Shown here: piece by piece, positions 45,856-62,886 of the stretch | Layout of the letters: every line of letters starts with the position of its first letter | Numbering within the stretch: the first letter of the stretch is position 1 | Assembly (NCBI RefSeq): GCF_024529955.1 | Contig: NZ_AP024854.1 | Location: 2,046,001 to 2,110,000 of the forward strand | DNA: 64,000 bases | DNA from: Photobacterium toruni | Lineage (GTDB): Bacteria > Pseudomonadota > Gammaproteobacteria > Enterobacterales > Vibrionaceae | Reading direction: 5' to 3' | The notes under the pieces: generated by a model | Seen by the model: the letters and a program-made list of their open reading frames with translations, nothing else | Database searches by the model: none | Told to the model about the DNA's origin: nothing | Made by a program: the position numbers and the translations under genes

Positions 45856-45872
45856 TCATAAATAATGGGTAT

Positions 45873-45927: not shown

Positions 45928-46422
45928 TTAGTTAATACCTGCACGCTTTAACAAACCAGCCATCAATGCTGAACTTGATTTCACTTGCTTTGATTTGTTT
46001 TTTAAATCTTTAGCAAGCGCAGTATCGTTAACATCATTAGCAATGAAGATCATTGATTGGTACATATCACGTGGCGTTTTAATACGCTCTTTATCGTTCA
46101 ATGGCTTAAGCAATGTCACTACATCTGAGCCTTTCTTTTTATTTTCAGTTGTGTAACGTAAAATAGAATCTAATAAACGATCCATATCAACCATGAATTC
46201 AGAGTTTTCAGTACCCTGTTTTTTCATTTCTTTAAGGTTTTTCTTACGAACCTGATTAATAACAAATGCTGGTTGATTTATTTTACGATAAGCGAAGATA
46301 CCCGCAAGCACCAATAACGCTACACTACCCGCTGCAACATAACCCCAGATAGAACCTGAAGATTCAGCGACAGGTTGAGCAACAGCGGCAATATTTGCAA
46401 CAGACTCTGGAACATCAGACAT
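45928..46422 (-). CDS. Uncharacterised membrane-anchored protein
   Basis: A 164-residue protein I do not recognise. It has a short N-terminal stretch rich in Ala, Val and Ser, one membrane segment (about residues 26-44, IWGYVAAGSVALLVLAGIFAY), then a basic stretch RKKNLKEMKKQG and a charged helical domain with DMDRLLDSILRYTTENKKKG and TPRDMYQSMIFIANDVND. This suggests an inner membrane anchor with a cytoplasmic or periplasmic helical domain. It has its own promoter region and a terminator shared with rsmS. Codon use is like its neighbours. Confidence 0.75.
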   Translation of the reverse strand: MSDVPESVANIAAVAQPVAESSGSIWGYVAAGSVALLVLAGIFAYRKINQPAFVINQVRKKNLKEMKKQGTENSEFMVDMDRLLDSILRYTTENKKKGSDVVTLLKPLNDKERIKTPRDMYQSMIFIANDVNDTALAKDLKNKSKQVKSSSALMAGLLKRAGIN

Positions 46423-47164
46423 ATTTGTAACCTTTTACTTTAAGAATTCGGAATGCGATGAGACCTTACCACCTACTCGATAAACTGCTATATGTTTTAT
46501 CAAAAATTAGTTCAAATAGGAGACAGAGCTCAAATGTACGCTCATTTTGCCGTTTTCAACAACAAAAATAAAGCACTGCTAGATTGATTTTCAACCAACA
46601 GATTGTAACTATTTGTCTAGCAATATAAAAACGTTAATTTTCATCGCAGTCTATTTTATTACTAACTACAAAACCGCTACCTAAACCACACATTAAGGTT
46701 TTACTTAGCCAAGGCTAATCATTACCACTAAACCGACTCACTCTTTATATATTTACGCTTAAAGTTTAGTCGTTTTTTCATACAATGATAGTATTATCAT
46801 TTGCTGATTAGCGTCTAGATATTGTTTAGCGCTATCAGTATAACTATAACGCGCATTAAGTAGCATAAGCATCGGTAACATGAAATTTAACACATTGATT
46901 CCTCAGCCCCTGACCGACACCATCAGCTAATCAAATCGATCATAACGTCGATGTTGCACAATCTTATTAATTAAGAAAACGCAATCATAATTGATTTTTA
47001 ATACTGATCAATTTAGGTAATGGAACCACCCTTAGATTGAACATGAGCAAAGATAAACCAGCGCAATGTATCTATGAGAAATACAACTCCCCAAGGCTGA
47101 TTCTTTATAATACATCATTACACACGAACTTTACGCTGATTTACATTAACTAATACCATATTAA
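46423..47164. other. Long gene-free region
   Basis: These 742 bases carry no open reading frame of useful length on either strand and no tRNA-like structure. They are AT-rich but not simple repeats. Small inverted repeats such as ATGATAGTATTATCAT (about 46784-46799) are visible. It sits at the boundary between the dinG-rsmS block and the nitrate locus, so a decayed gene or an unrecognised small RNA is possible. Confidence 0.6.
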
Positions 47165-48916
47165 CTAAGACGAAAAGAGCAGCAATACTACTACCAACAA
47201 TAATACGGCGCTGATAAGTTGCCACAATAATAACGGATCACGTTCAATTAATGGTCGTGACAATAACGGGGAGGAAGACGGCGGTGTTTTAAGCCCATTG
47301 ATGAGCTCTGAAAGAGCTTGATAACGGTATTGCGCATGAGGATGGCACATTTTCTTAACGTTCATCTCTAACCATCGCGGTAAATCTTGTCGATAGGAGG
47401 ATATCGCAGTGTAATTCATTTTCATTGCAACAGGCGCTTGTGAGTGGGAACTTAAACGTTGATACGGTAGTGATCCCGTCAGCATTTCATAGATCATCAC
47501 TCCTAATGAAAATTGCTCACTCAATATTGAAGGTTGTCCACCAGCATAACATTCTGGCGCTAAATAATTCAAATCACCCTGAGGATAATAGTCAATCGTT
47601 GCAGGCTTTAACTCTTGATAACCATTGACCCACGCACTGCCAAAATCAATGAATGTTACGCTTAAATTTTCACAGACGAGAATATTTTCGGGTTTAATAT
47701 CCGCATGATAAATCCCTTGGCGCTGCAAAGTGCGTACAATTGTTACAATGTCCGTCACTATCATTCGTACCGTAGCTAATGGTGGGTGAGGGTTATCAAT
47801 GATCCATTGTCGTAACGTCAGCCCATCAACAAATTCACAGACATGATAAAGAAAGGCAGAATTCATATTATGGTTAAAAATTTTCATCATCCCCGTCAAC
47901 TGACACTGTTGCCCTAGCCAACCTTCACGCATAAAACAATGTAAGTAACTACTATCGCTAATCATATTTTGAGATGGCATTTTTAATACATACAACTTTT
48001 TATCATCATCACTTTGAGCCAAATAAATATAACTACGACACCCAGCATCAAGCACTCGACAAATAACAAATTGATCTATTCGTTGCCCCGCTTTTAATGA
48101 TTGCGGAATAATTTTCGCCCCCTCTTTGATGAGTGCTTCACTTAGCGCTAATACAGGAAGAACATCAATTTCAACGATCACACAACTGGCATTATCTTGT
48201 GATCCGCACAGATGTGCATCAGTCACTAATTGTTGTGCCTGTTGTTCTAAATACTCACGTCTTGATTGCGTTGATAATTGTGGCGACACGGTATTGATAC
48301 TGAAAGTTTGCTCAATACATTGCACGACATTGATTTCATCATGAATACCATCCGTCGTCATAACGAACTTATCACCAACATCTAGTGGTATTGCCTGATA
48401 ATCGACGTGTAATTGAGAGTCAGCACCTAAAGCCCGAGTCAGATAATGTTGTCCATCATGATGCCGACGGCGATGATCGTTAGTTAAACAATAACAATGC
48501 TGCTCACGCCATAAATATACACGGCAATCTCCAATATGAAAGATATGCGCAGTATTTGATTTAATAATCACAACCGATAATGCAGTCAATGGTGCATCTT
48601 GCGGTAAACTCGCTTGCTGCCCATAATGAAACAGCCATAAATTAAGCGTATTAAGCACTAAAGAGGCCGCTTCTTTTACAGATAAGGTGGTTGCCGTTGC
48701 TAAATAATCTTCAATAAAATTTATCACGCTCAATTGACTGGCAATATAACTACGATCACTGCAACTGACACCATCAGCAATACATGCAATCACCCCTTTA
48801 TGCTGTAATTCAACCGTTTTTGATGGCGATAACACTGCAAAAGCATCCTGATTACACTGCTTTTTCCCCGTATCAGAATAACCGCCATAGCGTACAACCA
48901 AATTTGATACCGTCAT
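47165..48916 (-). CDS. Bifunctional PP2C-type phosphatase / Ser-Thr protein kinase, membrane-tailed
   Basis: A 583-residue fusion. Residues 1-240 are a PP2C phosphatase: CIADGVS (ADG 47-49), HIGDCRVYLW, TTDGIHDE near 213 and SQDNASCVIVEI give the metal-binding Asp residues. Residues 265-540 are an eukaryotic-type kinase: Lys in YVLKMP, the catalytic loop YHADIKPENILV near 403, DFG in FIDFGSAW near 423, and APE in YLAPECYAG. The last 20 residues are one membrane segment. The start is ATG 48916, after AGGA. It is the last gene of the cobA-nirBD-narK operon. Pseudomonas nitrate-assimilation loci have a similar gene, so a role in nitrate uptake control is likely, but the targets are unknown. Confidence 0.92.
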   Translation of the reverse strand: MTVSNLVVRYGGYSDTGKKQCNQDAFAVLSPSKTVELQHKGVIACIADGVSCSDRSYIASQLSVINFIEDYLATATTLSVKEAASLVLNTLNLWLFHYGQQASLPQDAPLTALSVVIIKSNTAHIFHIGDCRVYLWREQHCYCLTNDHRRRHHDGQHYLTRALGADSQLHVDYQAIPLDVGDKFVMTTDGIHDEINVVQCIEQTFSINTVSPQLSTQSRREYLEQQAQQLVTDAHLCGSQDNASCVIVEIDVLPVLALSEALIKEGAKIIPQSLKAGQRIDQFVICRVLDAGCRSYIYLAQSDDDKKLYVLKMPSQNMISDSSYLHCFMREGWLGQQCQLTGMMKIFNHNMNSAFLYHVCEFVDGLTLRQWIIDNPHPPLATVRMIVTDIVTIVRTLQRQGIYHADIKPENILVCENLSVTFIDFGSAWVNGYQELKPATIDYYPQGDLNYLAPECYAGGQPSILSEQFSLGVMIYEMLTGSLPYQRLSSHSQAPVAMKMNYTAISSYRQDLPRWLEMNVKKMCHPHAQYRYQALSELINGLKTPPSSSPLLSRPLIERDPLLLWQLISAVLLLVVVLLLFSS

Positions 48917-48966
48917 GATATTCCTCATTTAGTTACATCATTAATCCATACTACAAGTTCATACCA

Positions 48967-50436
48967 CTACCCGACATCAATTAAAGTTACGCTACCATCA
49001 TCATTAATTTCAGCCATTTTTCCTGATGGCTCTTTGAGTGCCAACAACGTTATAAAACCAACAACCGCCGTTAATGCAATAATGATAAAAAAGGTACTGT
49101 ACTCAACCATCGATAAAACGGTGAGATAGCACACCGCACCAACATTGCCATATGCTCCAGTCATTCCTGCAATTTGGCCTGTCATACGACGTTTAATTAA
49201 CGGCACTACAGCAAATACAGCACCTTCACTTGCCTGAACAAAGAACGAGCAAATCATCGCCGCTAATATTGCACTCCATAATGGCCACCCCACATTAATA
49301 TTCGCCATTAACACATACCCCATAGCTAAACCCGCAGTTAAGATCAATAAGGTTGCTTTACGCCCAAATCTATCGGATAACCAGCCACCACCGGGGCGCG
49401 AGATTAAATTCATAAATGCATACGAAGAGGCCACTATCCCCGCCATCACGGGTGTTAATGTAAAGATGTCAGCAAAAAATAACGGTAACATTGATACCAC
49501 CGCTAATTCAGATCCAAAGGTGGTAAAATAAAGCACATTAAGCACCGCAACCTGACGAAAAGAATACCGATGAAGTGTTGGCACTGGTTGCGATAACATC
49601 TTACGGTTAACTCGCCACAACTGTTTAATATCAACCAAATAAAGCCCAATTAACCCCACATAAATAACGTAACTTATCTTGGTATCTAATAGTCCAATCG
49701 TTGCTGATGAGAGCTTCCATACTAATAACCCCATTGCCGCATACATGGGTAGTTTCATGATGATTAACAACCATAGATCTCCTCGAGAGGTCACTTCCAT
49801 TGCGCCAATGTGGTGAGATTTATAATATGTCGCTCCTTGCGGAGTATCTGTTACCGTAAAATAAAATAGAGCGGCAAAAATAATGCTTAATCCCCCTGTC
49901 ACAGCCATGGCATAGCGCCAACCATCCTCACCACCAAACCATAACGCTAATGAAGGTAATGTAAACGCGGCGGCGGCAGAACCAAAATTGCCCCAGCCAC
50001 CATAAACACCTTCTGCTGTACCAAGTTCATGATGTGGAAACCATTCCGACACCAACCGAATTCCAATAACAAACCCCGCCCCAATGAATCCCAGCGCAAA
50101 ACGGGCTAACGCGGCTTGCATAAAGGAGGTTGAAAACGCAAACACAAAACAAGGAATAGCGCAGATCGCCAATAACAAACTATATACAATACGAGGGCCA
50201 TATCGGTCAGTCAGCATTCCAACAACCACTCGCGCAGGAATGGTTAACGCAACATTTAAAATTAATAGCGTTTTGATTTGTTCAGTAGTTAACCCTAATG
50301 ACGTTTTTACTGCTTGAAGTAAAGGTGCAAAGTTAAACCACACCATAAAAGTAATAAAAAAAGCCAACCAACTTATGTGGAGTATTTTCATTTTGCCGCG
50401 GAAAGAGAGCAGATTAAATTGAGTATAAGTCGCCAT
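48967..50436 (-). CDS. narK: Nitrate/nitrite transporter (NarK/NasA family, MFS)
   Basis: A 489-residue major facilitator with 12 predicted membrane segments, of the nitrate/nitrite porter group. Family signatures are VWFNFAPLLQAVK, the conserved loop GMLTDRYGPRIVYS near residue 75, GFIGAGFVIGIRLVSEWFP near residue 118, GVYGGWGNFGSAAAAF near residue 143, and the second-half ISRPGGGWLSDRFGRKATLL. GAGGGAA precedes the start. Position between nirD and the kinase gene points to uptake of nitrate for assimilation. Confidence 0.93.
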   Translation of the reverse strand: MATYTQFNLLSFRGKMKILHISWLAFFITFMVWFNFAPLLQAVKTSLGLTTEQIKTLLILNVALTIPARVVVGMLTDRYGPRIVYSLLLAICAIPCFVFAFSTSFMQAALARFALGFIGAGFVIGIRLVSEWFPHHELGTAEGVYGGWGNFGSAAAAFTLPSLALWFGGEDGWRYAMAVTGGLSIIFAALFYFTVTDTPQGATYYKSHHIGAMEVTSRGDLWLLIIMKLPMYAAMGLLVWKLSSATIGLLDTKISYVIYVGLIGLYLVDIKQLWRVNRKMLSQPVPTLHRYSFRQVAVLNVLYFTTFGSELAVVSMLPLFFADIFTLTPVMAGIVASSYAFMNLISRPGGGWLSDRFGRKATLLILTAGLAMGYVLMANINVGWPLWSAILAAMICSFFVQASEGAVFAVVPLIKRRMTGQIAGMTGAYGNVGAVCYLTVLSMVEYSTFFIIIALTAVVGFITLLALKEPSGKMAEINDDGSVTLIDVG

Positions 50437-50448
50437 GATTATTCCCTC

Positions 50449-50796
50449 TTAACGCATTAAAGAATCGAGCAGTTGCACTTGAACACAGCCATTAATGCGC
50501 CTTACAGGATAAGTTGGCACTAACATTTCAGCCGACTCTATACACTGACCACTATCAAGACAAAAATGCTGTTTATAGAGAGGAGAAGCCACCACAACGG
50601 TTCCCTTTAATGAACCAATAATGCCACGTGACAATACATTCGCTTTTCCTATTGGATCATAATTATTAATCGCATACAGAGTATTATTATGCCCACATAG
50701 AAACAGCGCTATCTGATGCCCGCCCACCAAAGCACAGACACCCATATCAATATGCAAATCGTCTTCATCACAAACAGTAATCCATTGATTAATCAT
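50449..50796 (-). CDS. nirD: Nitrite reductase (NADH) small subunit NirD
   Basis: Small partner of NirB, with a Rieske-like fold that normally lacks the cluster ligands. The 115-residue product begins MINQWITVCDEDDLHIDMG and has GSLKGTVVVASPLYKQHFCLD and YPVRRINGCVQVQL in the usual order. It follows nirB by only 3 bases and precedes narK by 12. Confidence 0.94.
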   Translation of the reverse strand: MINQWITVCDEDDLHIDMGVCALVGGHQIALFLCGHNNTLYAINNYDPIGKANVLSRGIIGSLKGTVVVASPLYKQHFCLDSGQCIESAEMLVPTYPVRRINGCVQVQLLDSLMR

Positions 50797-50799
50797 TAC

Positions 50800-53346
50800 T
50801 TATTCCTCATCGGTAATATTAACAACAGCAATAGATTCAGCCGCTTGTAACCACATTAGAGGCGTACGTTGTTCACGAACAGTTTTATAAGCTAATCCCA
50901 AATCAGGTTGATGACTATTAATAAAATGTTGAAACCGACGCAGCTTTTGCGGTGATTCAAGCGTAGTTTTCCATTCACATTGATAAAGGCTCAGACTTTG
51001 TGCCATTTCTTGCTCAAGCTCCGAGGTAATATTGAGTGCATCCTCAATCACTACTTGTCGTAAATATTCGATCCCCCCCTCCAGATTTTCAAGCCATACG
51101 GAAGTACGCTGTAACCGGTCTGCGGTACGAATATAAAACATCAATATTCTATCGATATATTGAATCAGAGTGTCATTATCGAGATCGGCAGCAAACAAAT
51201 CCCCATGGCGAGGGCGCATACCACCATTACCTGCAATATATAAATTCCAGCCTTTTTCAGTTGCAATTACACCAATATCTTTTGACTGCGCCTCAGCACA
51301 TTCACGAGTACAACCAGAAACAGCAAATTTGAGTTTATGAGGGGAACGCAAGCCTTTGTAACGATTTTCAAGAACAATCGCAAATGCCATACTGTCAGCC
51401 ATTCCATAACGACACCACATCGAGCCCACACATGATTTTACAGTACGAACGGATTTACCATACGCATGCCCGGTCTCAAATCCCGCATCAACAAGTAAAC
51501 GCCAGATCTGAGGTAACTGATGCAATTGCGCGCCAAATAAATCAATCCGTTGCCCACCCGTAATTTTGGTATAGAGCTTAAATTGTTGTGCTACTTGCCC
51601 TAAGATAATCAGTTTTTCAGGGGTGATCTCTCCGGCTGGAATACGAGGTACCACTGAATACGTACCGTCTTTTTGCATATTACCGAGATAAACATCATTC
51701 GTGTCTTGTAAGCCAATATGTTGTGGTTCAAGAATATAGTCATTCCAAAATGATGTGAGGATTGAACTAATGGTAGGCTTACAAATATCACACCCTAGTC
51801 CTGAGCCGTATTCAGTTAATAATGCACTAAAGGTTTTGACCTTCTTAACACGAATAATATCGGCTAATTGTTGGCGACTATAACTAAAATGTTCACATAG
51901 AGAATGATTGATCTCATGTCCTTTTGCTACTAATGCTACTTCCATGATTTGTTTTGCAAAAGAAGCACACCCGCCACATCCCGTACTGGCTTTAGTCATT
52001 GTTTTAAGCTGTGTCATATCAACACACCCCTCAGCAACGGCTTGGCAAATCTGTCCCTTATTAACATCAAAACATGAACACACTTGCGCGGTGTCACTCA
52101 AGCTATCTTCTGTTGCTGGTGTTATCGCAGCTAAGGCTTGAGGCATTAATAATAGCGATGGTGGACTAGGTAATGGTGATTGATTCAGTGTGAGTTGCAA
52201 TAGTTGAGAATATTGCTCAACATTGCCAACTAACACTGCCCCAAGTAATTTATCACCTTGCTCTGAAACAATAATCCGTTGATAACTTTGCTCAGCATCA
52301 TTGGATAAAGTGAACACTTGCGCAGCATCAATCGTAGTATGAACATCACCAATACTGCCGACATCTACCCCTAAAAGCTTTAACTTAGTACTCATATCGG
52401 CACCAGTAAACACCGCATCAATACCACAGACTATCGATGCTGCAACTCGTGCCATTTTATAACCCGGTGCCACTAAACCAAAAATACGATTATTCCATAG
52501 TGCGCACTCACCAATAGCGTAAATATCACGGTCACTGGTTTGACAATGATCGTTAACCACGATTCCACCACGCTCACCAATAGCTAAACCGGCTTGTTTC
52601 GCTAAGGCATCTTGAGGACGAATGCCAGCAGAAAATACCACCATATCCGCTTCTAATTCTGTGCCATCAGCAAAAATTAATTTATAGCGACACTGATCAC
52701 CCGCTACAATTTTTTCAGTGGCTTTGCTAGTATGAATATTGACCCCTAAGGCTGTTATTTTTTGACGTAATAGCTCACCACCGCCCTCATCAAGTTGAAC
52801 CGCCATTAACTGAGAGGCAAACTCAACCACATGGGTTTCTAACGCCATATTTTGCAATGCATTTGCAGCTTCAAGTCCAAGTAATCCACCACCAATCACA
52901 ACCCCAACTTGGCTTTTTTTACCTGATGCCGCGATGGCTTTTAAATCATTAATGGTTCGATAAACATGACAATGTTCAGCATCATTACCCTCAATAGGAG
53001 GCACAAAAGGATATGATCCAGTAGCTAAAATCAAACGATCATAAGCAACCTCTTCACCGCCATCAGTTACAATAGTTTTATGTACACGATCAATATTTAC
53101 CACCCGTTGATTAATGTGATAACTAACTCCCGCCTGTTGGTAATCACACTCATGAGCAAGGGTTAAATCGCTCGCCGTTTTCCCGTTAAAATAATTGCTT
53201 AATTGAACACGATCATAGGCTAAACGATCTTCTTCTGAAAATGTGATTAACGCTATGTTTTGCTCATTATCTTGCGCTAAAACTTGTTCAATAAAATGAT
53301 GTCCAACCATGCCATTACCAATAATAACTATCCGTGTTCTGCTCAT
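50800..53346 (-). CDS. nirB: Nitrite reductase (NADH) large subunit NirB
   Basis: Reduces nitrite to ammonia with NADH, using FAD, iron-sulfur clusters and siroheme. From MSRTRIVIIGNGMVGHH, after a clear AAGGAG, the product is 848 residues. Order: FAD/NAD oxidoreductase (GGGLLGLEAANALQ near 150), BFD-like [2Fe-2S] domains (CSCFDVNKGQ and CGGC, then CDICKP), a ferredoxin-type half-domain, and the siroheme/[4Fe-4S] motif CVGSMWCRYG with SGCTRECAEAQ. An in-frame ATG eight codons upstream overlaps the end of cobA. It is second in the operon, 14 bases after cobA. Confidence 0.97.
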   Translation of the reverse strand: MSRTRIVIIGNGMVGHHFIEQVLAQDNEQNIALITFSEEDRLAYDRVQLSNYFNGKTASDLTLAHECDYQQAGVSYHINQRVVNIDRVHKTIVTDGGEEVAYDRLILATGSYPFVPPIEGNDAEHCHVYRTINDLKAIAASGKKSQVGVVIGGGLLGLEAANALQNMALETHVVEFASQLMAVQLDEGGGELLRQKITALGVNIHTSKATEKIVAGDQCRYKLIFADGTELEADMVVFSAGIRPQDALAKQAGLAIGERGGIVVNDHCQTSDRDIYAIGECALWNNRIFGLVAPGYKMARVAASIVCGIDAVFTGADMSTKLKLLGVDVGSIGDVHTTIDAAQVFTLSNDAEQSYQRIIVSEQGDKLLGAVLVGNVEQYSQLLQLTLNQSPLPSPPSLLLMPQALAAITPATEDSLSDTAQVCSCFDVNKGQICQAVAEGCVDMTQLKTMTKASTGCGGCASFAKQIMEVALVAKGHEINHSLCEHFSYSRQQLADIIRVKKVKTFSALLTEYGSGLGCDICKPTISSILTSFWNDYILEPQHIGLQDTNDVYLGNMQKDGTYSVVPRIPAGEITPEKLIILGQVAQQFKLYTKITGGQRIDLFGAQLHQLPQIWRLLVDAGFETGHAYGKSVRTVKSCVGSMWCRYGMADSMAFAIVLENRYKGLRSPHKLKFAVSGCTRECAEAQSKDIGVIATEKGWNLYIAGNGGMRPRHGDLFAADLDNDTLIQYIDRILMFYIRTADRLQRTSVWLENLEGGIEYLRQVVIEDALNITSELEQEMAQSLSLYQCEWKTTLESPQKLRRFQHFINSHQPDLGLAYKTVREQRTPLMWLQAAESIAVVNITDEE

Positions 53347-53360
53347 TTTGATCTCCTTAT

Positions 53361-54236
53361 CTATGCCCATTCTTGAGGTTTATTGTATGAGGTTAAACTT
53401 TCTATTTTTAATGAAGGCCAAGCTAAGCTCTCACTTAACTTCACCACCTCACCAATAATAATTAACGCTGGCGATACAATGTGTTGCTGTCTAACCCGTT
53501 GAGGGAGTGTTGCCAACGTAGCGTTAATAACACGTTGCTCATCGGTGCAGCCTCTTTCAATAATTGCCGCTGGTGTTGTTGCGATTAATCCTGCATTAGT
53601 CAATTGTTGACAAATTAAATCAACTTTAGATAACCCCATATAAAACACTAAGGTATGGTTAAGATCTACCAAAGCTTGCCATGCAATAACCGTCTCTTTT
53701 TCAGTATGGACGGTGACAAAAGTACACCCCTGAGACACGCCACGATGAGTTAATGGAATGCCAGCATAAGCACTACAACCACTCGCAGCGGTAATCCCTG
53801 GCACTAAATCAACCTTAATGCCATGCTGACGCAAAAACTGAATTTCTTCACCGCCGCGACCAAAGATAAACGCATCACCACCTTTTAAACGGCACACTTG
53901 CTTTCCTTGTTGTGCTAAATGCACTAACAACTGATTAATCGCCATTTGAGGCAAGCTTTGCTGCCCCTTTTCTTTACCGACAAAAATGGTTTGGCAGCCA
54001 GATCGTACTAACGCCATAATTGCATCACTGACTAAGCGGTCATAAACTACAACATCAGCACTCTCTAATGTTTTTAATGCTTTCAAGGTCAACAAGTCGG
54101 GATCACCAGGACCCGCTCCGACTAATGTCACTCTACCTTGGTTATTATTAGCATCGACGGTTTGTGTTATCTGACACCATCGAGTATTAATGTCATCAGT
54201 AAGAGAAGAATATTGTTGTGACTTCAATGACTTCAT
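53361..54236 (-). CDS. cobA: Uroporphyrinogen-III C-methyltransferase
   Basis: Uses two S-adenosylmethionine to make precorrin-2, the precursor of the siroheme needed by NirB. The 291-residue product has a short extra N-terminus, then VTLVGAGPGDPDLLTLKALK near residues 36-55, VVYDRLVS, VCRLKGGDAFIFGRGGEE near residue 118, and GVSQGCTFVTVH. There is no fused CysG-like dehydrogenase/chelatase domain, so another enzyme finishes siroheme. GAGGTG precedes the ATG. It is first in the minus-strand operon, 58 bases downstream of a predicted sigma54 start point. Confidence 0.94.
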   Translation of the reverse strand: MKSLKSQQYSSLTDDINTRWCQITQTVDANNNQGRVTLVGAGPGDPDLLTLKALKTLESADVVVYDRLVSDAIMALVRSGCQTIFVGKEKGQQSLPQMAINQLLVHLAQQGKQVCRLKGGDAFIFGRGGEEIQFLRQHGIKVDLVPGITAASGCSAYAGIPLTHRGVSQGCTFVTVHTEKETVIAWQALVDLNHTLVFYMGLSKVDLICQQLTNAGLIATTPAAIIERGCTDEQRVINATLATLPQRVRQQHIVSPALIIIGEVVKLSESLAWPSLKIESLTSYNKPQEWA

Positions 54237-54304
54237 GGTTCACCTCGATATTATATGGATGAAGATTGACTTATTTGGATTTATATTTATGTCTTATTTA
54301 CTAA

Positions 54305-54320
54305 AGCAAACTTAATGCCA
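54305..54320 (-). promoter_or_regulatory. Candidate sigma54 promoter of the cobA-nirBD-narK operon
   Basis: On the minus strand TGGCATTAAGTTTGCT matches the sigma54 -24/-12 consensus TGGCACRNNNNTTGCW at all invariant positions (GG-N10-GC). The start point would be near 54294, giving a leader of about 58 bases. Confidence 0.75.
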
Positions 54321-54430
54321 GCCACTAATTAACCATATATTTATCCTTGCCAATTCGTTGAATTTAAATAAATTAAAAATAAAACCGACAAATAGACCAC
54401 TTACAATAAAAACATTAAAACCAATAATAA

Positions 54431-54445
54431 GCACCTTTATAGTGC
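54431..54445. promoter_or_regulatory. Candidate NtrC enhancer site
   Basis: GCAC-CTTTATA-GTGC has the GCAC-N7-GTGC spacing of NtrC sites. It lies about 144 and 183 bases from the two predicted sigma54 start points, a normal enhancer distance. A half-site TGCACCA follows at 54461-54467. Confidence 0.65.
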
Positions 54446-54594
54446 ATTGTTTATTATCGTTGCACCAAAATAATTAAATCTTGGTATTGTTAATTAATAA
54501 ATAATTATAAATAAAGTACGCAAACAAACCTAACCCATTAATAAAAAACAAATAATTATCAAAAGTAGACAAAAGAATAACGCAACTACAGCTC

Positions 54595-54610
54595 TGGTAT
54601 ATATATTGCT
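54595..54610 (+). promoter_or_regulatory. Candidate sigma54 promoter of nasA
   Basis: TGGTATATATATTGCT has GG and GC separated by 10 bases and ends TTGCT, as in the sigma54 consensus. It would start transcription near 54621, 39 bases before the nasA ATG, which follows AAAGGAG. The leader is too short for an attenuator of the Klebsiella NasR type. Confidence 0.7.
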
Positions 54611-54659
54611 AATTATTAATACAGTTTAAATCTTATTATTTATAAAGGAGAAACAACCA

Positions 54660-57314
54660 ATGGATAATAAAAAAACATCATGGGTAAAATCAACCTGTGC
54701 TTATTGTGGTGTTGGTTGTGGTATAGAAGCAAGAATAAACAATAAAGGTCAACTTGATATAAGAGGTGATTCACACCATCCAGCTAATAAAGGACGGTTA
54801 TGTTCAAAAGCATTAAATTTAGTAGAAACACTGGTTAGCGATAATAAAATGTTAACTCCTCAAATATTACATCAACCCGTAAGTTGGAATGAAGCATTAA
54901 ATCAAACCGCTTTGCAGTTACAAGAAACAATTACAAAATATGGTACTGATGCGGTCGCTTTTTATGTATCAGGGCAATTACTCACAGAAGATTATTATGT
55001 CATTAATAAATTAGCAAAAGGCTTCATTGGAACAGCAAATATTGATACCAATTCACGCTTATGTATGTCATCAGCAGTTGCAGGTCATCAACGGGCTTTT
55101 GGTGAAGATTGTGTTGCAGGCTGTTATGATGATTTAGACGCTGCAGCAGTGGTAATACTAACCGGTTCCAACCTTGCTTGGTGCCACCCAGTCCTTTTTC
55201 AACGCTTAAAACTAGCACAAAAAAAACATCACACTAAAATCGTGGTCATCGATCCCCGTCATACTGCAAGCTGCGATATTGCAGACTTACACCTTGCGAT
55301 TACACCTGACAGTGATGTGGCATTATTTACGGGTTTATTAAATTATTTAAACAATAATAACGGTTTTGATCATGATTATATTAATGCTCATACTCATAAT
55401 ATTCAGTCTGCTTTAGTAACCGCAATAGCTTTAGAACAAACGGCTGACATCAGTCAATTAACAGGCATTAGCAAACAACAACTCAATGAATTTTATCAAC
55501 TCTTTACTGATAATCCACGTACTGTCACCGTCTATTCTCAAGGTGTGAATCAATCGCTATCAGGTACAGATAAAGTCAATGCTATCATTAACTGTCATTT
55601 AGCTACTGGACGTATAGGAAAACCGGGAGCAACCCCTTTTTCTATTACCGGCCAACCTAATGCAATGGGGGGACGAGAAGTTGGAGGATTAGCAACAACC
55701 TTGGCGGCTCACCTTGATTTTCAGCATCCAGAACATTGGCAACTATTGCGTGATTTTTGGCAAACAGATAACCTTGTCACCCACCCCGGTTTAAAAGCCG
55801 TAGATATGTTTGATGCAGTTGCCCAAGGGAAAATAAAAGCTATTTGGATCATCGCGACCAACCCTGCAGCCAGCTTACCCAATAGCCATAAAGTTCATCA
55901 AGCGTTAGCGCAATGTCCATGTGTTATCGTGTCAGATTGTGTCGATAATAATGATACTTTACGCCATGCAACGATTAAGCTCCCGGCTCAAGGTTGGAGT
56001 GAAAAATCAGGCACAGTTACCAATTCAGAACGTTGCATTTCTCGTCAACGTCGCTTAATACCAACTCAAGGTGAAGCTAAACCTGATTGGTGGATTATCA
56101 CTCAAGTAGCTCAACGAATGGGATTTAAAGAAAGTTTTCATTACATCAATGAAGCTGAAATATTTGCTGAGCATGTCGCTTTAACAGCCCAAAATAATCA
56201 CCCACACCAAACGCCACGTTTGCTTAATTTAAGTGGGTTAAGTGAGCTTACTGCACACGAATACGATACTTTATTACCGCAGCAATGGCCGTTAAATAGT
56301 GATGGTCTACACCAGCCACGCTTATTCAGTGATGGCATTTTCCCCACTCAAGATGGTCGCGCTCGTTTTGTTGAAACAGACTATAAGCCACTGATTAAAA
56401 ATATATCAACTACATATCCATTACTATTAAATACAGGTCGAGTGCGTGATCAATGGCACACCATGACACGGACGGGGCTTTCGGCCACCCTTGCTCATCA
56501 CACCCAAGAACCACTGATCGCAATTCATCCCTCAAATGCTAAACAATATCAGATCAAGAATAACCATCTTGTCAATGTAAAGAGTCAACATGGCCATGCT
56601 ATTTTTCGAGCACATATAAGTAATGATGTTCAGCCTAACAATGCGTTTATTCCGATTCACTGGACACAGCAAACATCATCATCAGGCAGTGTATGTTCAT
56701 TAATTGGAGAGCAACAAGATCCTATTTCAGGGCAACCGCAGTATAAAGCGACCCCAATTAAATTAACGCCAATTCCTTTCACCACTGAAGCTATTTTAAC
56801 CACTACCACAGCACTGACATTGGCAAACTTACCGCCACAAACTACACTTTATTGGGTATCTAAAAAAGTCACAGCAGGCTATCAATATCATATTAATTCA
56901 GCCTTAAACCTCAACGCATTAGAACAAATATTAGTTCATTATTTTATGCCAACATCTGCGATCCATTTAAGAGCAATTGGCGCTCAACATCGTCGAATCA
57001 TCATGCTTAACAATAACCGATGTGTCCGTTCACTACTGATTCAAGAAAATGACAATAAACCAATGATTAACCCACCAGTGAATATTCTTACCTGTAGCAG
57101 TGATGAATTAGCATTACATCAATTTCTCAATTGCAAAGATAATATTACAGCACCTAAAATTATTTGTGCTTGTAAGCAAATAACCAAACAACAATTAGTG
57201 TCAACTATCACTGAAAAACACATACAAAATGTAGAAGCATTAAGTCAAGCCACAACCGCAGGTACAGGCTGTGGTGGTTGCTGGGCTGAATTAGAAGCAT
57301 TACTCAACCAATAG
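54660..57314 (+). CDS. nasA: Assimilatory nitrate reductase, large subunit
   Basis: Cytoplasmic molybdenum enzyme that reduces nitrate to nitrite for assimilation. The 884-residue product has the N-terminal [4Fe-4S] cysteines STCAYCGVGCGIEA near residue 13 and a fourth Cys in GRLCSKALN. The molybdopterin oxidoreductase body has SRLCMSSAVAGHQRAFGED, NPAASLPNS and QPNAMGGREVGGLA, and the C-terminal domain has LLNTGRVRDQWHTMTRTG. A BFD-like [2Fe-2S] domain ends the protein (ICACKQITKQQLV, GTGCGGCWAEL), as in Klebsiella NasA. No NasC-like NADH reductase subunit or nasR regulator lies beside it. Confidence 0.95.
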   Translation: MDNKKTSWVKSTCAYCGVGCGIEARINNKGQLDIRGDSHHPANKGRLCSKALNLVETLVSDNKMLTPQILHQPVSWNEALNQTALQLQETITKYGTDAVAFYVSGQLLTEDYYVINKLAKGFIGTANIDTNSRLCMSSAVAGHQRAFGEDCVAGCYDDLDAAAVVILTGSNLAWCHPVLFQRLKLAQKKHHTKIVVIDPRHTASCDIADLHLAITPDSDVALFTGLLNYLNNNNGFDHDYINAHTHNIQSALVTAIALEQTADISQLTGISKQQLNEFYQLFTDNPRTVTVYSQGVNQSLSGTDKVNAIINCHLATGRIGKPGATPFSITGQPNAMGGREVGGLATTLAAHLDFQHPEHWQLLRDFWQTDNLVTHPGLKAVDMFDAVAQGKIKAIWIIATNPAASLPNSHKVHQALAQCPCVIVSDCVDNNDTLRHATIKLPAQGWSEKSGTVTNSERCISRQRRLIPTQGEAKPDWWIITQVAQRMGFKESFHYINEAEIFAEHVALTAQNNHPHQTPRLLNLSGLSELTAHEYDTLLPQQWPLNSDGLHQPRLFSDGIFPTQDGRARFVETDYKPLIKNISTTYPLLLNTGRVRDQWHTMTRTGLSATLAHHTQEPLIAIHPSNAKQYQIKNNHLVNVKSQHGHAIFRAHISNDVQPNNAFIPIHWTQQTSSSGSVCSLIGEQQDPISGQPQYKATPIKLTPIPFTTEAILTTTTALTLANLPPQTTLYWVSKKVTAGYQYHINSALNLNALEQILVHYFMPTSAIHLRAIGAQHRRIIMLNNNRCVRSLLIQENDNKPMINPPVNILTCSSDELALHQFLNCKDNITAPKIICACKQITKQQLVSTITEKHIQNVEALSQATTAGTGCGGCWAELEALLNQ

Positions 57315-57370
57315 TAGATCACGACTATTGAAGATATATTCAATACGCTGATTAAATGTGGTGCAAAATC

Positions 57371-57417
57371 ACCACCGATACTAGAGAGATTATTAACCTT
57401 GGCTGAGTCTCGGTGGT
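57371..57417. other. Hairpin downstream of nasA
   Basis: Arms ACCACCGA-T-ACT and AGT-C-TCGGTGGT (11 pairs, one mismatch) with a loop of about 23 bases, between nasA and the convergent MarC gene. There is no T-run, so termination is uncertain. Confidence 0.5.
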
Positions 57418-57469
57418 AATTAGATAATTTAAAAACGATACTATTTATATTCGAAAGAATAGACGTAAA

Positions 57470-58093
57470 CTAAATATAAAAATCTTTAATCCCTTGTAAT
57501 AAATTATTCACTGCAACCGCCGCTAATATCAACCCCATCACACGGCTAATAATCGCAGCACCAATATTTCCAATCCATTTTTGAATCGTCGTAGCACTCA
57601 GGAGTAATAACAAGCTCACAAACAATATCGCCAGCATTACTCCTGCCGTTATTGCTTGATCAATCACAGAGTAACGGTGATTATCCGTTAGCATCACTAC
57701 AGCCATCATCGCACCAGGAGAAGCAATAGATGGAATAGCTAAAGGATAAACGGCGAGATCAGCAAGTTCTGAACGGCTCACATCTTGGGTTAATTTTTGT
57801 TCTTGCTCAGGCTTACTTTCACCAAAAATCATGGTTAACGCAAACAGTAGTAACACTAAACCACCAGCAGCCTGAAATGCAGGTAATGGAATTTGCATTG
57901 CTTCGAGCAATAATTGCCCCGCAACTAAGAAAAAGATTAATACGCCACTTGCAATAGCAACAGCTTTTAATGCAACTTTACGCCGCTGCTTTGGTGTCAA
58001 ATGTTGAGTCTGTGATAAATAAACAGGAACCGATCCAATCGGATCAATCACAGCCCAAAGTACAACAAACTGAGTAATTATAATACCAAGCAA
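57470..58093 (-). CDS. MarC/YhgN family integral membrane protein
   Basis: A 207-residue membrane protein with about six segments. The family signature is FVVLWAVIDPIGSVPVYLS at the N-terminus, with LAIPSIASPGAMMAVVML near residue 118 and GLILAAVAVNNLLQGI at the C-terminus. Function is unknown (an early link of MarC with multidrug resistance did not hold). The start appears to be TTG at 58093 with GAGGTG seven bases upstream. The next in-frame ATG would remove the conserved first helix. Confidence 0.85.
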   Translation of the reverse strand: MLGIIITQFVVLWAVIDPIGSVPVYLSQTQHLTPKQRRKVALKAVAIASGVLIFFLVAGQLLLEAMQIPLPAFQAAGGLVLLLFALTMIFGESKPEQEQKLTQDVSRSELADLAVYPLAIPSIASPGAMMAVVMLTDNHRYSVIDQAITAGVMLAILFVSLLLLLSATTIQKWIGNIGAAIISRVMGLILAAVAVNNLLQGIKDFYI

Positions 58094-58269
58094 AAATCAC
58101 CTCTCCAATAATGACTAATAATTCCATTTACTAATAAGCTGTTATCTTATTCAGCTAAAGGTTTACGTGTTGGTTGTAACCGTAGCCTGACAATATTGAA
58201 ATGTATATTATAATTTTAATTTGTTGATATTCTATTGAAAAATATCAACAAAAAGATAATAACTCGATT

Positions 58270-58743
58270 TTATAATGCCTCGATTGCTGTCGTAAATCCA
58301 TTTGCAGATAGATTAAATCCAGCAATATCAACATATTCTTTCTTTTGAAAAAACGTTAATACTTTATCCATATTATCGGCATTATTACCCGCATAAGCAT
58401 GTGCAGTGCAATTATGCGTCGTAGGATCATAACGGGTATTTACTCGTAGTACTATTTCATCAGCAACATTCAAATTACTAAATACGGGAACATATAACCA
58501 ATTTTGACATGCCGTTGCTTGTGTTTCCATATGATCAAAAAAATCAATACTTGATAAACGTTGACCACGATTAGTGAAATGAAAAATATACGTCTGATTA
58601 CCAAAATCGGTTTTGGTCATGATTTCATTTTGAGCAGGAAGAGCTTGATAACTATTATGTTGAGTTGTACCAGCAAAGGCTGTTGGTGCGGCTAAACATA
58701 ATGAAAGTAAAAATGAAGAAAGAACGGTGTTTCGGTTAAGCAC
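58270..58743 (-). CDS. Uncharacterised exported protein
   Basis: A 157-residue protein I do not recognise. The GTG start at 58743 has GGAG upstream and gives a clear 24-residue signal peptide (MLNRNTVLSSFLLSLCLAAP, cut after AFA). A longer frame begins with TTG five codons earlier. The mature part is beta-rich with two cysteines (TACQNW and THNCTAH), which could form a disulfide in the periplasm. It is monocistronic, between the MarC gene and the glutathione-synthetase-like gene. Confidence 0.75.
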   Translation of the reverse strand: MLNRNTVLSSFLLSLCLAAPTAFAGTTQHNSYQALPAQNEIMTKTDFGNQTYIFHFTNRGQRLSSIDFFDHMETQATACQNWLYVPVFSNLNVADEIVLRVNTRYDPTTHNCTAHAYAGNNADNMDKVLTFFQKKEYVDIAGFNLSANGFTTAIEAL

Positions 58744-58874
58744 TACGATGCACTCCAATGGCTAAAATCGCTAACAGCCATCCAATATGACTATTAGCGA
58801 TAATAACACAATAGCTTTTACGGCAATTTTATTTTTAACAGCCATCTTTTATATCGATTTTTATACGACAGCGG

Positions 58875-60335
58875 TTAATCAATCAATACTAAAGAGTCTA
58901 AAATGCCTTTACCACTATGGATCCCACCTTCATTTTCACTTGCAGGCTTACTACGAATTAAATAGCCAACATAACCATCAAAATCAGTAACAGGTACCCC
59001 ATTAAAATAAGCACTAAATAAGCCTATTTCACTTACAAGATCATCAATTATAGTTGTTTTTGCATCACGCACTGCAATGGTTGCTACGTCTCGTTCATGC
59101 GGGTATAAGCGTTGCATTAAGGCCCAAGCATCATATTCAGCAACCGTTAATTTTGCCAATGTTGCGCTAATATCATCACCAAAAACGCAATGACCACCAC
59201 CCTCACCTTGATTTTTTAACACCCATTCTGTTTTGATTGCTTTTGTATTGAACCAATTAATCGTAGTGGCATTAATAGGTTTCATCTCAGCTAATACACT
59301 TTTAACTGATTCTGCTTCTGCAAGTGTAAGCCCCCAACGTATATACTCAGATGCGGGCATCATGGTGAGTAACATCTGCATCGTTTTACTGGTGGCTAGT
59401 TGCTGTCCAACAGTGGCATTAAGCGCAATATGATGCTGTTCAATAAAAACCCGCATCTGGCTCAGAGTATAACAACACACAGCTTCATTCAGATCAGGCG
59501 CACAATAGTCAGAATATTGATACCCCGCTCGTAAATAAACGACATCTACGGCGCCAACTCCGTCCAATATCAATCGCTGATTATCGCCCGTTAATAATTG
59601 CGCACTTAATTGTTCAAAGGTACGCCTTACGGTACGTACGCCCTGTTGCTGTAAGGCTATTTCTAACAGGTGCTGATCATAAACATTATCTTCATTTTTC
59701 TGCACCACCATTAAAAAAACAGGTGATCCTTGTTCGTTAAAATCCGCTTTTATTTGAAAAGCAGCCGTCACAATGCTATTTGCTAATTGTGTTAAAGCTT
59801 GATTATCAGCTGGCGTTGCTGACGTATCTTCTAACCATGATTGATAAATCTCTGGCCATTGACGTTGCATAAAGGCATGAAGTTCAGTTGCACGTTGTCC
59901 AAAAGGAGCCATACCAGCCGCAATACCATTAAATTCAATCACTTTTGCGCCATATTGACGATCATCCATAAAATCAGTACGCATTAACAATAATGGCTGA
60001 CGAGCAGGATCGAGTGGCTGAATCTCATTACCATGGATCTGCTGGTGAAGCGCCATTAAGCGTCCAAAGAAAGGATCGGCTTTTGCCATATCACTCAATG
60101 ATGATTGTAAAAATACATAATCTTCAGCAACATTACTGATCAATTTAGTAAGTAACGGAACAACTTGACGTAAGTGAGTATACACTTTTCTCTCAATCGT
60201 CATTGGCGCTATACTAAATGGGCAGTGTCGTGCACTATTGTCAGCTTGACGAAAAGCGACACCATTCATAATTGCCCACTCACAAATATCTTCAATAACC
60301 TGTGGTGCAATCACCGCTTTTTTATTGGTATTCAT
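58875..60335 (-). CDS. Glutathione synthetase, eukaryotic type
   Basis: A 486-residue ATP-grasp protein that resembles eukaryotic glutathione synthetase (about 474 residues) and not bacterial GshB (about 315). Landmarks in order: metal-binding KVIEFNGIAAG near residues 128-138 (EIN in animals), the substrate domain QKNEDNVYDQHLLEIALQQ with GVRTVRRTF, VVYLRAGYQYSDYCAPD, and the Gly-rich ATP lid VLKNQGEGGGHCVFGDD near residues 372-388, then MQRLYPHERD. It would join gamma-glutamylcysteine to glycine. I chose ATG 60335. GTG eight codons earlier is possible. It is monocistronic, beside nfsA. Lateral origin is inference. Confidence 0.85.
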   Translation of the reverse strand: MNTNKKAVIAPQVIEDICEWAIMNGVAFRQADNSARHCPFSIAPMTIERKVYTHLRQVVPLLTKLISNVAEDYVFLQSSLSDMAKADPFFGRLMALHQQIHGNEIQPLDPARQPLLLMRTDFMDDRQYGAKVIEFNGIAAGMAPFGQRATELHAFMQRQWPEIYQSWLEDTSATPADNQALTQLANSIVTAAFQIKADFNEQGSPVFLMVVQKNEDNVYDQHLLEIALQQQGVRTVRRTFEQLSAQLLTGDNQRLILDGVGAVDVVYLRAGYQYSDYCAPDLNEAVCCYTLSQMRVFIEQHHIALNATVGQQLATSKTMQMLLTMMPASEYIRWGLTLAEAESVKSVLAEMKPINATTINWFNTKAIKTEWVLKNQGEGGGHCVFGDDISATLAKLTVAEYDAWALMQRLYPHERDVATIAVRDAKTTIIDDLVSEIGLFSAYFNGVPVTDFDGYVGYLIRSKPASENEGGIHSGKGILDSLVLID

Positions 60336-60442
60336 ACTTTCATCACTCTTCAATAGCACTACATTTCCATAATACTAGAAATATAATAATAGTAATATAC
60401 TTAGCTTATAAAATTCAATATCATGATATCTATTCTACTGTG

Positions 60443-61165
60443 CTACTTTTCCATTAAACCTTTACTGTGAAAATATTCGGCAATAAATGGACGCGATTCT
60501 TTTGATAACGTGGCTGTTACTGCGCTCGACCAATCTTGTTGTTTATTATGCGTCGAACGCTGCTGATAATAGTTAATCGTCTGTTGGTCATATTCAGCTA
60601 ACCGTCGTGTGTTTAAAGGCTGATATTCATTCTCATGCAAAATCATATCCATCGGTAAACGTGGCTTTTGTTGTGGATCTTGCGCTGGCACACCTAAACA
60701 CATACCAAATAATATGGCGCTATACGGTGGTAAATTTAGTAGCGCATCCACCTCTCGAGGATTATTACGCAACCCGCCAATATAAACCCCTCCAAGCCCC
60801 ATTGATTCTGCGGCTAATAAACAATTTTGCGCCATGATACCGCTATCGATAGCGCCAATTAAGGCAAGCTCGGTATATTCAGGTTTGATCTCAGCACTAA
60901 TAGAATAATGACGTTGATAATCAATACAGAACACTAAAAATTCAGCGGCTTGTTTCACATAAGCTTGATCACCAGCAAGGTGTGCTAATGCGGTCCGTTT
61001 CTCAGGATCAGTAATACGAATAATCGATGTCGCTTGAATCATGCTTGAACTAGAAGCGGCAATACCTGCTGCAACAATCGCCTTTAACTGCTCAGCAGAA
61101 ATCGCATCATCGGTAAATTGACGAATAGAGCGATGACCAAGCATCGTTTGAATCGTAGTATTCAT
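60443..61165 (-). CDS. nfsA: Oxygen-insensitive NADPH nitroreductase NfsA
   Basis: FMN enzyme that reduces nitroaromatics, quinones and chromate with NADPH. From MNTTIQTMLGHRSIRQFTDD the product is 240 residues, the length of E. coli NfsA. The FMN-binding HRSIRQFTDD, then SSSMIQATSIIRITD, QAAEFLVFCID, ESMGLGGVYIGGLRNNP, FGMCLGVPAQDPQQKPRLP and the end KESRPFIAEYFHSKG all match. GGAC precedes the ATG. It is divergent from the AhpD-like gene and 107 bases upstream of the glutathione-synthetase-like gene on the same strand. Confidence 0.95.
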   Translation of the reverse strand: MNTTIQTMLGHRSIRQFTDDAISAEQLKAIVAAGIAASSSSMIQATSIIRITDPEKRTALAHLAGDQAYVKQAAEFLVFCIDYQRHYSISAEIKPEYTELALIGAIDSGIMAQNCLLAAESMGLGGVYIGGLRNNPREVDALLNLPPYSAILFGMCLGVPAQDPQQKPRLPMDMILHENEYQPLNTRRLAEYDQQTINYYQQRSTHNKQQDWSSAVTATLSKESRPFIAEYFHSKGLMEK

Positions 61166-61449
61166 AAGTAGTAAGTCCATAAAATATTTTATTCACCATA
61201 ATACTAACCTAAAAAGCTGCAATCTCTTTTTCCGTAACCTATTTTATCATTAGCTTTATTTGAGAAGACTAAACAGCAACGTCAAGCACTCGGCTTAATC
61301 TTGTATATATAATCAGAATCATCCTAATATCTGGTTATATCTTTGCGTTTTATGCAAAACTGTTACGCTTATATATCGATTACATCGCTTAAAAATAATT
61401 AATATACTCTTTTCAACAAATCATCAACGATAAAACGAAAGGTATTATT

Positions 61450-61890
61450 ATGAATAAGCGTATTGATATTGCACAGGTTCAACCAAAAGCATTAAGCTCA
61501 ATGTTAACGATTGAAAATTATTTAGCTGAAACTGAATTATCAAATAAACTAAAAGAAATAATTAAAATTCGTTCATCGATGATTAATAAGTGTGCCTACT
61601 GTATTCAAATGCATACTATAGCAGCATTAAAATTAGGATTTGATCAACAAAAATTATTTGCTATTGCGGCATGGTCAGAATCACCATTATTTGATGACAC
61701 AGAAAGAGCATTATTAAAATTAACTGATGAAATGACATTAATTTCACATAATGCAGTCAATGATGAAACTTATGCTGAATGTTTTAGTCTATTAGGTGAA
61801 ACTCAATTAGCAGAAGCGATGATGCAGATCATCATGATCAATTCATGGAATCGCTTTGCATTAGCAACCAAAATGAAACACTCATTATAA
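61450..61890 (+). CDS. AhpD-like carboxymuconolactone decarboxylase family protein
   Basis: A 146-residue helical protein of the AhpD/CMD family. The redox motif CAYCIQMH is at residues 48-55, the CxxCxxxH pattern of AhpD-type peroxidases. SSMIN before it and FAIAAWSESPLFDDTERALL after it match the family fold. It has GAAAGG upstream and ends at a terminator. It is divergent from nfsA and followed by a LysR regulator, so it may belong to a stress-response module. Confidence 0.88.
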   Translation: MNKRIDIAQVQPKALSSMLTIENYLAETELSNKLKEIIKIRSSMINKCAYCIQMHTIAALKLGFDQQKLFAIAAWSESPLFDDTERALLKLTDEMTLISHNAVNDETYAECFSLLGETQLAEAMMQIIMINSWNRFALATKMKHSL

Positions 61891-61897
61891 TGACTAT

Positions 61898-61933
61898 CCC
61901 CTAATGTTTATTTTAAATATTGGGGGTTTTTAT
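61898..61933 (+). terminator. Terminator of the AhpD-like gene
   Basis: Arms CCCCTAATGTTT/AAATATTGGGG with one bulge, followed by GTTTTTATTT. Confidence 0.8.
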
Positions 61934-61988
61934 TTATAATTTTTAAGCCCTATATGATAGATTACTTCTAATAACAAAGGATATTAGT

Positions 61989-62879
61989 ATGCTAGATTTA
62001 CTAGGCGTATTTGAGCAAGTTGTTGTTTCTGGAAGTTTTTCACAAGCAGCAAAAGCATTAAACATGGCTCCATCATCCGTAACACGAAACATTGATAAGC
62101 TTGAAAGCAAGATCAAAACGACCCTGTTTAAACGCAGCACGCGCCAATTAATATTAACGGAAGATGGTCAATATTTTTATCAGCAGTCAATTAAAATACT
62201 TGAGCAATCTCGAAATCTATTATCAGAAATGCAAGGAAATAATAATACGCCAGAAGGTACTTTACGTATTTCGGTATTTGAAACCTTTGGTAATATTTAC
62301 CTTACGAAACTAATACCTGATTTTTTAAAACGTTACCCTAAAATAAATATTGAATTAGAATTAGATAATAATCTGGTTGATTTAAACAGTGATAATATAG
62401 ATATTGCTATTCGTATCGGTACACCTATTGATAGTAATCTTAAAGCGCGACACCTTCTTACCAATACCACCTCTTTAGTTGCGACACCTGAATATATTAA
62501 AAATCACCCTCAAATTAATACACCACAAGATCTAAAGGATCATAACTGTCTAATTATCAGTCATGAACGTCAACGAACGAATTGGTATTTTAATTCAAAT
62601 AATACCCTCGCTAAAATATCAGTAACAGGTAATTTAGCATCTAAAGGTGGCTCACCGTTATTAAATGCCGCATTGCAACATCTTGGCGTATTATTATTAT
62701 CTGATTGGATGATTAGGCCCTATATTGACAGCAAAGAATTAGAGATCTTATTACCTAAATGGACCGTGACACATAATGAAAACACCAGTGGTGAAATTTA
62801 TGCGGTGTACAAGAGCGCCCAATATCTAAAACCACAGATTAGAGCGTTTCTTGATTATTTAGCCGAACAGTTACGATAA
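61989..62879 (+). CDS. LysR-family transcriptional regulator
   Basis: A 296-residue LysR regulator. The N-terminal winged helix is clear: LLGVFEQVVVSGSFSQAAKAL, then MAPSSVTRNIDKLESKI and TLFKRSTRQLILTEDG. The effector domain follows with LRISVFETFGNIYLTKLIPDFL and DIAIRIG near residue 138. It is on the same strand as the AhpD-like gene upstream, and its stop is 7 bases from the stop of the convergent PACE gene. Either neighbour could be its target. The effector is unknown. Confidence 0.93.
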   Translation: MLDLLGVFEQVVVSGSFSQAAKALNMAPSSVTRNIDKLESKIKTTLFKRSTRQLILTEDGQYFYQQSIKILEQSRNLLSEMQGNNNTPEGTLRISVFETFGNIYLTKLIPDFLKRYPKINIELELDNNLVDLNSDNIDIAIRIGTPIDSNLKARHLLTNTTSLVATPEYIKNHPQINTPQDLKDHNCLIISHERQRTNWYFNSNNTLAKISVTGNLASKGGSPLLNAALQHLGVLLLSDWMIRPYIDSKELEILLPKWTVTHNENTSGEIYAVYKSAQYLKPQIRAFLDYLAEQLR

Positions 62880-62886
62880 CTAACCA

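Follow-up and report, generated by a model that had tools for sequence, protein, structure and literature searches.

The nitrate-assimilation genes of the Photobacterium window (the whole 64,000-nt stretch of DNA that was analysed) form two back-to-back sets around a 423-bp spacer at positions 54237-54659, which is bounded by the cobA start codon at 54236 on the minus strand and the nasA start at 54660 on the plus strand. This layout raises the question of how two gene sets that are read away from each other are switched on. The answer argued for here, which we consider very probable on the basis of conserved motifs, is that the spacer is a bidirectional sigma54 region in which a shared NtrC enhancer co-activates nasA and cobA-nirBD-narK.

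Gene assignment and predicted promoter elements

The predicted features are collected in Table 1. The gene for the phosphatase/kinase fusion is the final gene of the apparent cobA-nirBD-narK operon; a match to this fusion protein was also found after narK in the locus L075. The nasA product matched, in addition to the model given in Table 1, a NasA model below its cut-off, and its top-scoring model, that of formate dehydrogenase, was likewise below the cut-off. Because every matching model stayed below its curated cut-off, the name nasA rests partly on the gene context.

Table 1. Positions of genes and predicted control features in the window
Feature	Position	Strand	Remarks
PP2C phosphatase / Ser-Thr kinase fusion	47165..48928	-	both domain types match, below equivalog cut-offs
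narK-family nitrate/nitrite transporter	48967..50436	-	TIGR00886, 332.8 bits (cut-off 311.7)
nirD, nitrite reductase small subunit	50449..50796	-	TIGR02378, 111 bits (cut-off 74.65)
nirB, nitrite reductase large subunit	50800..53370	-	TIGR02374, 1058.9 bits (cut-off 578.35)
cobA-type uroporphyrinogen-III C-methyltransferase (siroheme for NirB)	53361..54236	-	TIGR01469, 300.7 bits (cut-off 185)
Predicted cobA leader, about 58 nt	54237..54294	-	no fold better than shuffles; no Rfam match
Sigma54-type -24/-12 element for cobA-nirBD-narK(-kinase)	54305..54320	-	TGGCATTAAGTTTGCT, 13.9 bits
NtrC-type site 1	54430..54446		palindrome GCAC-N7-GTGC at 54431-54445; 16.9 bits, approximate matrix
NtrC-type site 2	54461..54477		core TTGCACCAAAAT; 5.7 bits, weak as full dyad
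IHF-like site between enhancer and nasA promoter	54546..54558		one mismatch, found by eye; weak, putative
Sigma54-type -24/-12 element for nasA	54595..54610	+	TGGTATATATATTGCT, 11.7 bits
Predicted nasA leader, about 39 nt	54621..54659	+	weak hairpin, z -2.24; no Rfam match
nasA, assimilatory nitrate reductase catalytic subunit	54660..57314	+	NasC model NF047855, E 2.3e-129, below cut-off

The sigma54 -24/-12 consensus is TGGCACGNNNNTTGCW. Two elements of this type, both with GG-N10-GC, point outward from the spacer and were found exactly where the original prediction had placed them, as was the GCAC-N7-GTGC palindrome; they have two (minus strand) and three (plus strand) mismatches to this consensus. 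The sigma54 and NtrC scoring matrices are approximate. The transcript starts, assigned 12 bases past the GC of each -12 part, are predicted at about 54294 (cobA side) and about 54621 (nasA side). Among 2,000 dinucleotide shuffles of the 423-bp spacer, an equally good plus element was obtained in 16, an equally good minus element in four, the NtrC palindrome in one and the divergent pair in none. Across the 64-kb window, 22 sites (the two promoter elements included) scored at least as high as the weaker element, and a strict sigma54 pattern had eight matches in the whole genome (control, one), neither spacer element being among the eight. By the sequence alone, the single motifs are unremarkable and the case that they make is moderate.

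Conservation of the divergent element pair

The nasA protein was searched against 296 genomes of the family (Vibrionaceae), and a relative was found in 202. The genomes were sorted into nasA types by the E-value of the best match, with cuts at 1e-231 and 1e-170. The 30 best nasA loci (window included) were supplemented with 42 further stretches from the family (two from repeat genomes) and 20 from elsewhere in the order. Loci were scored when an intact divergent cobA or nirB was present, which gave 71 loci: 62 from the 125 family genomes with the nasA type of the window (29 among the 30 top-scoring loci and 33 hand-picked), and nine of the 20 outside-family loci, all of which were hand-picked. 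L102 and L103 were dropped as the same genomes as L017 and L020, respectively. Also outside the scored set are seven loci with another nasA layout (L076-L079, L081, L100, L101), the 11 outside-family loci that lack a divergent cobA or nirB, and genome G021 (L020/L103), which was excluded because its cobA is fragmentary and its elements are 1,977 bp apart. Note that this genome, of 2.6 Mb, has about 2 kb between the two sigma54 elements and a mere fragment as cobA match (L103).

A divergent cobA was present within the examined stretch in 28 of the 30 best loci, and both elements were present in 28 of these 28. Both facing elements reached at least 9 bits in 71 of the 71 scored loci (expected, 0.83) and at least 11 bits in 67 (expected, 0.22); these expectations, from 60 dinucleotide shuffles of each locus, are not independent tests because the loci are related. 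The spacing between the elements was 254-334 bp (median, 300; SD, 13.4) in the 71 loci, and the distances from element to gene were more variable (SD, 42.8 on the cob side and 24.1 on the nasA side), the cob-side SD being inflated because the ends of BLAST matches stood in for the gene ends. Wider spacing was seen outside Vibrionaceae (387 bp in L147 and 415 bp in L149).

A scan of named genomes, covering the best 80 loci of at least 595 matching stretches, gave 11 loci with a divergent cobA or nirB, of which 10 had the element pair; at least four of the 11 apparently repeat genomes already counted. The pair-bearing genomes include Photobacterium piscicola, P. marinum, P. pectinilyticum, Shewanella surugensis, Vibrio splendidus and V. 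chagasii. In Marinomonas spartinae (L150), which has a divergent nirB, the element pair was looked for and not found.

Because both elements are kept in all of the scored divergent loci, the observation is real, and the divergent sigma54-type pair is confirmed as a conserved arrangement. The original prediction had named conservation of the three motifs in orthologous loci as a check: it was borne out for the two elements in 71 of 71 loci, and for the exact NtrC palindrome in 19 of 71 only (expected, 0.35).

NtrC-type sites between the promoters

Beside the palindrome, a half-site had been proposed. The sequence is there, but it is better read as a second, weaker and conserved NtrC site (54461-54477), the core of which, TTGCACCAAAAT, is identical in eight of eight clade loci (the window and seven close relatives). 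The left half of site 1 is ACAC in the other seven clade loci, versus GCAC in the window. The two sites are centred 31 bp apart, and each centre is some 144-183 bp away from the predicted starts, a distance that agrees with the suggested action by looping, as judged by motif only and with the second site being weak.

At least one NtrC-type site was located between the promoters in 70 of the 71 loci (expected, 12.8) and at least two in 56 (expected, 1.7; single-base shuffles in both cases); in L083, no site was detected at 5 bits. The middle fifth of the inter-promoter stretch holds 114 of the 135 NtrC-type sites. Genome-wide, the exact GCAC-N7-GTGC pattern occurs in 19 places (the spacer site included), versus 18 for the reversed control pattern. 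The motifs in the spacers and their conservation support the proposal that a single enhancer area lies between two divergent sigma54 promoters. It is also conceivable that the promoters are driven separately, cobA from site 1 and nasA from site 2, in which case no enhancer would strictly be shared; the two sites in 56 of 71 loci would fit such separate drive, as would the sites of the window, each of which is nearer one promoter. In 48 of the 56 two-site loci, however, the two sites are 18-33 bp apart (51-140 bp in the other eight), as is generally known of a cooperative NtrC enhancer, and we regard separate drive as unlikely.

As for the protein that would act on the shared enhancer, the window genome encodes one NtrC above the curated cut-off (at C1:2861834) and one RpoN above the curated cut-off. 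The half GCACCAA also occurs in two exact palindromes upstream of ntrC, one about 3.6 kb away (C1:2858283) and the other about 1.2 kb away (C1:2860655). NtrC-like control, as originally proposed, is supported by these findings, and NtrC is likely to be the activator at the spacer sites, with binding predicted from the motifs. Several more activators encoded by the genome match the NtrC model, below the cut-off, and one of these might bind the spacer centre instead; but the spacer sites share GCACCA/TGGTGC halves with the palindromes upstream of ntrC, and no such activator was recognised by eye among the 17 open reading frames listed for 44000-64000, so that we see hardly any likelihood in another member of the NtrC family.

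Helical phasing between enhancer and promoter was examined in two ways. A hand-grouped test with 67 of the 71 loci gave p values of about 1e-5 to 2e-4 (distinct values), and an automated test with 70 loci, also on distinct values, gave p values of 0.005-0.19 for the cob side and 0.13-0.63 for the nasA side. No claim of phasing is made because the automated test weakened or failed.

Three loci of another family (L134, L135 and L136), in which nasA has no divergent nirBD, have NtrC-type sites (exact in L135 and L136, with one mismatch in L134). All three also have a one-mismatch NarP-type palindrome, and a sigma54 element of at least 12 bits is present in L135 and L136 only.

Leaders and ANTAR proteins

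A long leader with paired hairpins and a terminator was looked for at both promoters and not found; the predicted leaders are about 58 and 39 nt, and the Rfam search was empty. In a weak predicted hairpin (54633-54670), the nasA leader pairs with the beginning of the coding sequence; this hairpin may be due to chance in AT-rich DNA.

The ANTAR domain occurs in NasR and NasT. In a search of the 296 family genomes, 78 were positive and the window genome had no ANTAR protein. Searches of the own genome only, for ANTAR and NIT (PF08376), were set aside because the controls gave no signal. An ANTAR match was present in nine of the 125 Vibrionaceae genomes with the nasA type of the window versus 68 of the 70 with the other type (exceptions, G051 and G084), in one of the seven with a weaker nasA match, and in none of the 94 without a nasA match. 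Fisher's exact test of ANTAR against nasA type gave p of about 1e-39, kinship being ignored. The layout was seen in 63 of the 125 genomes of the first type (62 divergent, and G021 disrupted) and in seven of the 70 of the second type, none of which was divergent.

In loci of the second type (L076-L079, L081, L100, L101, L115, L116), nasA and cobA are co-directional and the nasA product is about 40-45% identical to that of the window. The ANTAR match in L115 and L116 is a short open reading frame between cobA and ABC-transporter-like genes, near nasA; gene names in these two loci were assigned by reading the translations.

Stretches from six of the nine ANTAR-bearing exceptions of the first type were inspected. 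In L122, a second nasA, belonging to the other type, lies close to the ANTAR match, and in L120 a cobA-type gene is present; in L117, L119 and L121, the nas queries matched nothing. In L118, an ABC-transporter-like cluster without nasA contains an ANTAR-type gene together with one that by eye resembles nasS, the nasA of that genome being of the divergent type. Two of the remaining three exceptions are weak ANTAR matches (G175, E 1.8e-5; G071, E 9.1e-10).

The expectation that the short leaders leave no room for a NasR-type attenuator was thus upheld by the leader lengths, the empty Rfam search and the lack of an ANTAR protein in the genome, and the absence of such an attenuator is well supported.

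NarP-, FNR- and IHF-type sites

The NarL/NarP-type motif is a 7-2-7 heptamer palindrome. A palindrome of this kind, typically TACCACTTTAGTGGTA, was exact in 24 of the 71 spacers (expected, 0.05) and present with at most one mismatch in 41 (expected, 0.8). In 19 of these 24 loci, the distance from the exact palindrome to the nasA element downstream of it is 78-101 bp, and in L065 it is 129 bp; the palindrome is on the cob side in L080, L096, L097 and L098, and also occurs in another family (L128-L130). The spacer of the window has no such palindrome at zero or one mismatch, and one weak match at two mismatches; the eight loci of its clade have none at zero or one mismatch. NarP itself is encoded in the window genome (G000:C1:2219517-2220137; 56% identity to E. 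coli NarP) and, the window genome counted, in seven of the eight clade genomes, the exception being G079. The window genome also has a 7-2-7 palindrome between napF-like and narQ-like genes (named by reading the translations).

The original prediction had suggested control by nitrogen status alone. Because 24 of the 71 loci hold an exact NarP-type palindrome in the same spacer, this cannot be generalised: such control is a reasonable guess for the clade of the window, and doubtful for the system at large. Nitrate input through NarP in the relatives is probable, as far as the motifs indicate. In its full form this reading makes the spacer a region of two signals, NtrC acting through sigma54 and NarP through the 7-2-7 palindrome, the clade of the window being without NarP input. 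The excess of palindromes over expectation, their concentration at 78-101 bp upstream of the nasA element and their presence in another family all speak for it, and the genomes of all 21 Vibrionaceae loci with an exact site have a NarP match (E 1e-45 or better). Moreover, Table 1 of Ravcheev 2007 (PMC1805755) gives NarP as a predicted regulator of nirBDC-cysG in V. vulnificus, V. parahaemolyticus and V. fischeri, so that the NarP prediction for these genes is not new. Against it stands the weak co-occurrence: the exact site was found in none of five NarP-less versus 21 of 57 NarP-bearing Vibrionaceae loci (p 0.16; 36 NarP-bearing loci are without the site), a test that is weak because NarP is nearly universal. 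In addition, the NarP-less L029 has a one-mismatch palindrome, the NarP match of the site-bearing genome G149 has an internal stop, the window genome has NarP without the site, and the 7-2-7 pattern is not enriched genome-wide (12 places versus 16 for the control). On balance, we find the two-signal reading plausible, while stopping just short of calling it probable.

FNR, together with NarP, is listed for nirBDC-cysG of the same three Vibrio species in Table 1 of PMC1805755, and sigma70 promoters under FNR and NarP might dominate, with the sigma54 elements being minor or vestigial. FNR-like sites (at most two mismatches) were found in 39 of the 71 loci (expected, 21.6), which would agree with this; however, the sigma54 elements are kept in 71 of 71 loci and the FNR-like match of the window has two mismatches, and we hold dominance of sigma70 promoters to be very improbable.

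The exact IHF consensus was present in 15 of the 71 loci, versus 2.6 expected, at scattered positions; it is absent from the window.

Proposed mechanism

Under the shared-enhancer reading, nitrogen shortage would lead to binding of phosphorylated NtrC to the central sites (54430-54446 and 54461-54477), where it would assemble into an active oligomer. By DNA looping, the oligomer would open sigma54-RNA polymerase at both outward promoters, so that nasA, for the step from nitrate to nitrite, would be switched on together with cobA-nirBD-narK, for siroheme, the step from nitrite to ammonium, and nitrate uptake. No RNA antitermination step would follow initiation, because the leaders are short and an ANTAR protein is absent. 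In many relatives, a nitrate signal is probably added by the NarP-type palindrome, and the clade of the window would do without it. We infer from the sequences that NtrC binds, that the promoters depend on sigma54 and fire at the same time, and that NarP plays its part.

As a tentative generalisation, in which we have more doubt than confidence, marine Gammaproteobacteria may share a deeply conserved sigma54 module, bidirectional and about 300 bp long, with one NtrC enhancer for the two gene sets, in which nitrate is read through NarP at the DNA and not through NasR or NasT at the RNA. If so, NarP would act on sigma54 promoters, which would be unusual for NarP, and the clade of the window would be a nitrate-blind derivative.

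Two control designs that rarely occur together are present in one family: a nas operon read in one direction and accompanied by an ANTAR gene, and a divergent sigma54 module that in most cases has no such gene beside it in the genome. Lineages that are related but differ in whether they have the NarP-type site form a natural experiment. The coordination of two promoters by one enhancer becomes open to testing, as does a shift of nitrate sensing from RNA to DNA. According to PMC4899447, marine heterotrophic bacteria may be competitors of phytoplankton for nitrate.

Comparison with known systems

In the literature on these bacteria, NarP of Vibrionaceae or Vibrionales is treated in Rodionov 2005 (PMC1274295) and Ravcheev 2007, and an NtrC regulon for Shewanella is listed in PMC3223726. 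The NarP-regulated nirBDC-cysG of Vibrio in PMC1805755 probably concerns the same region as ours, and presumably the same site; the terms sigma54 and nasA occur zero times each in the main text of that article. Among the papers listed by searches of an open-access library, none was seen to describe sigma54 promoters paired divergently between nasA and nirBD. The pair may be known from subscription journals, supplements or RegPrecise.

Control of nas genes by sigma54 and NtrC is textbook knowledge from Klebsiella, in which the nasF operon has a sigma54/NtrC promoter followed by NasR antitermination. The window is similar to nasF in placing genes of assimilatory nitrate and nitrite reductases under a putative NtrC-activated sigma54 promoter. 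It differs in that two divergent promoters apparently share an enhancer, the predicted leaders measure about 39 and 58 nt, and the search for an ANTAR protein in the genome was negative. NasS-NasT controlled nas operons are known from Paracoccus and Azotobacter, and the second locus type of Vibrionaceae is presumably of this kind. The enzymes are common to both, whereas loci of the NasS-NasT type are arranged one-way from nasA to cobA with ABC-transporter and ANTAR genes nearby (two loci listed). The module described here arranges known parts divergently over a length that varies little, is seldom accompanied by an ANTAR protein, and has the NarP-type site as an optional part.
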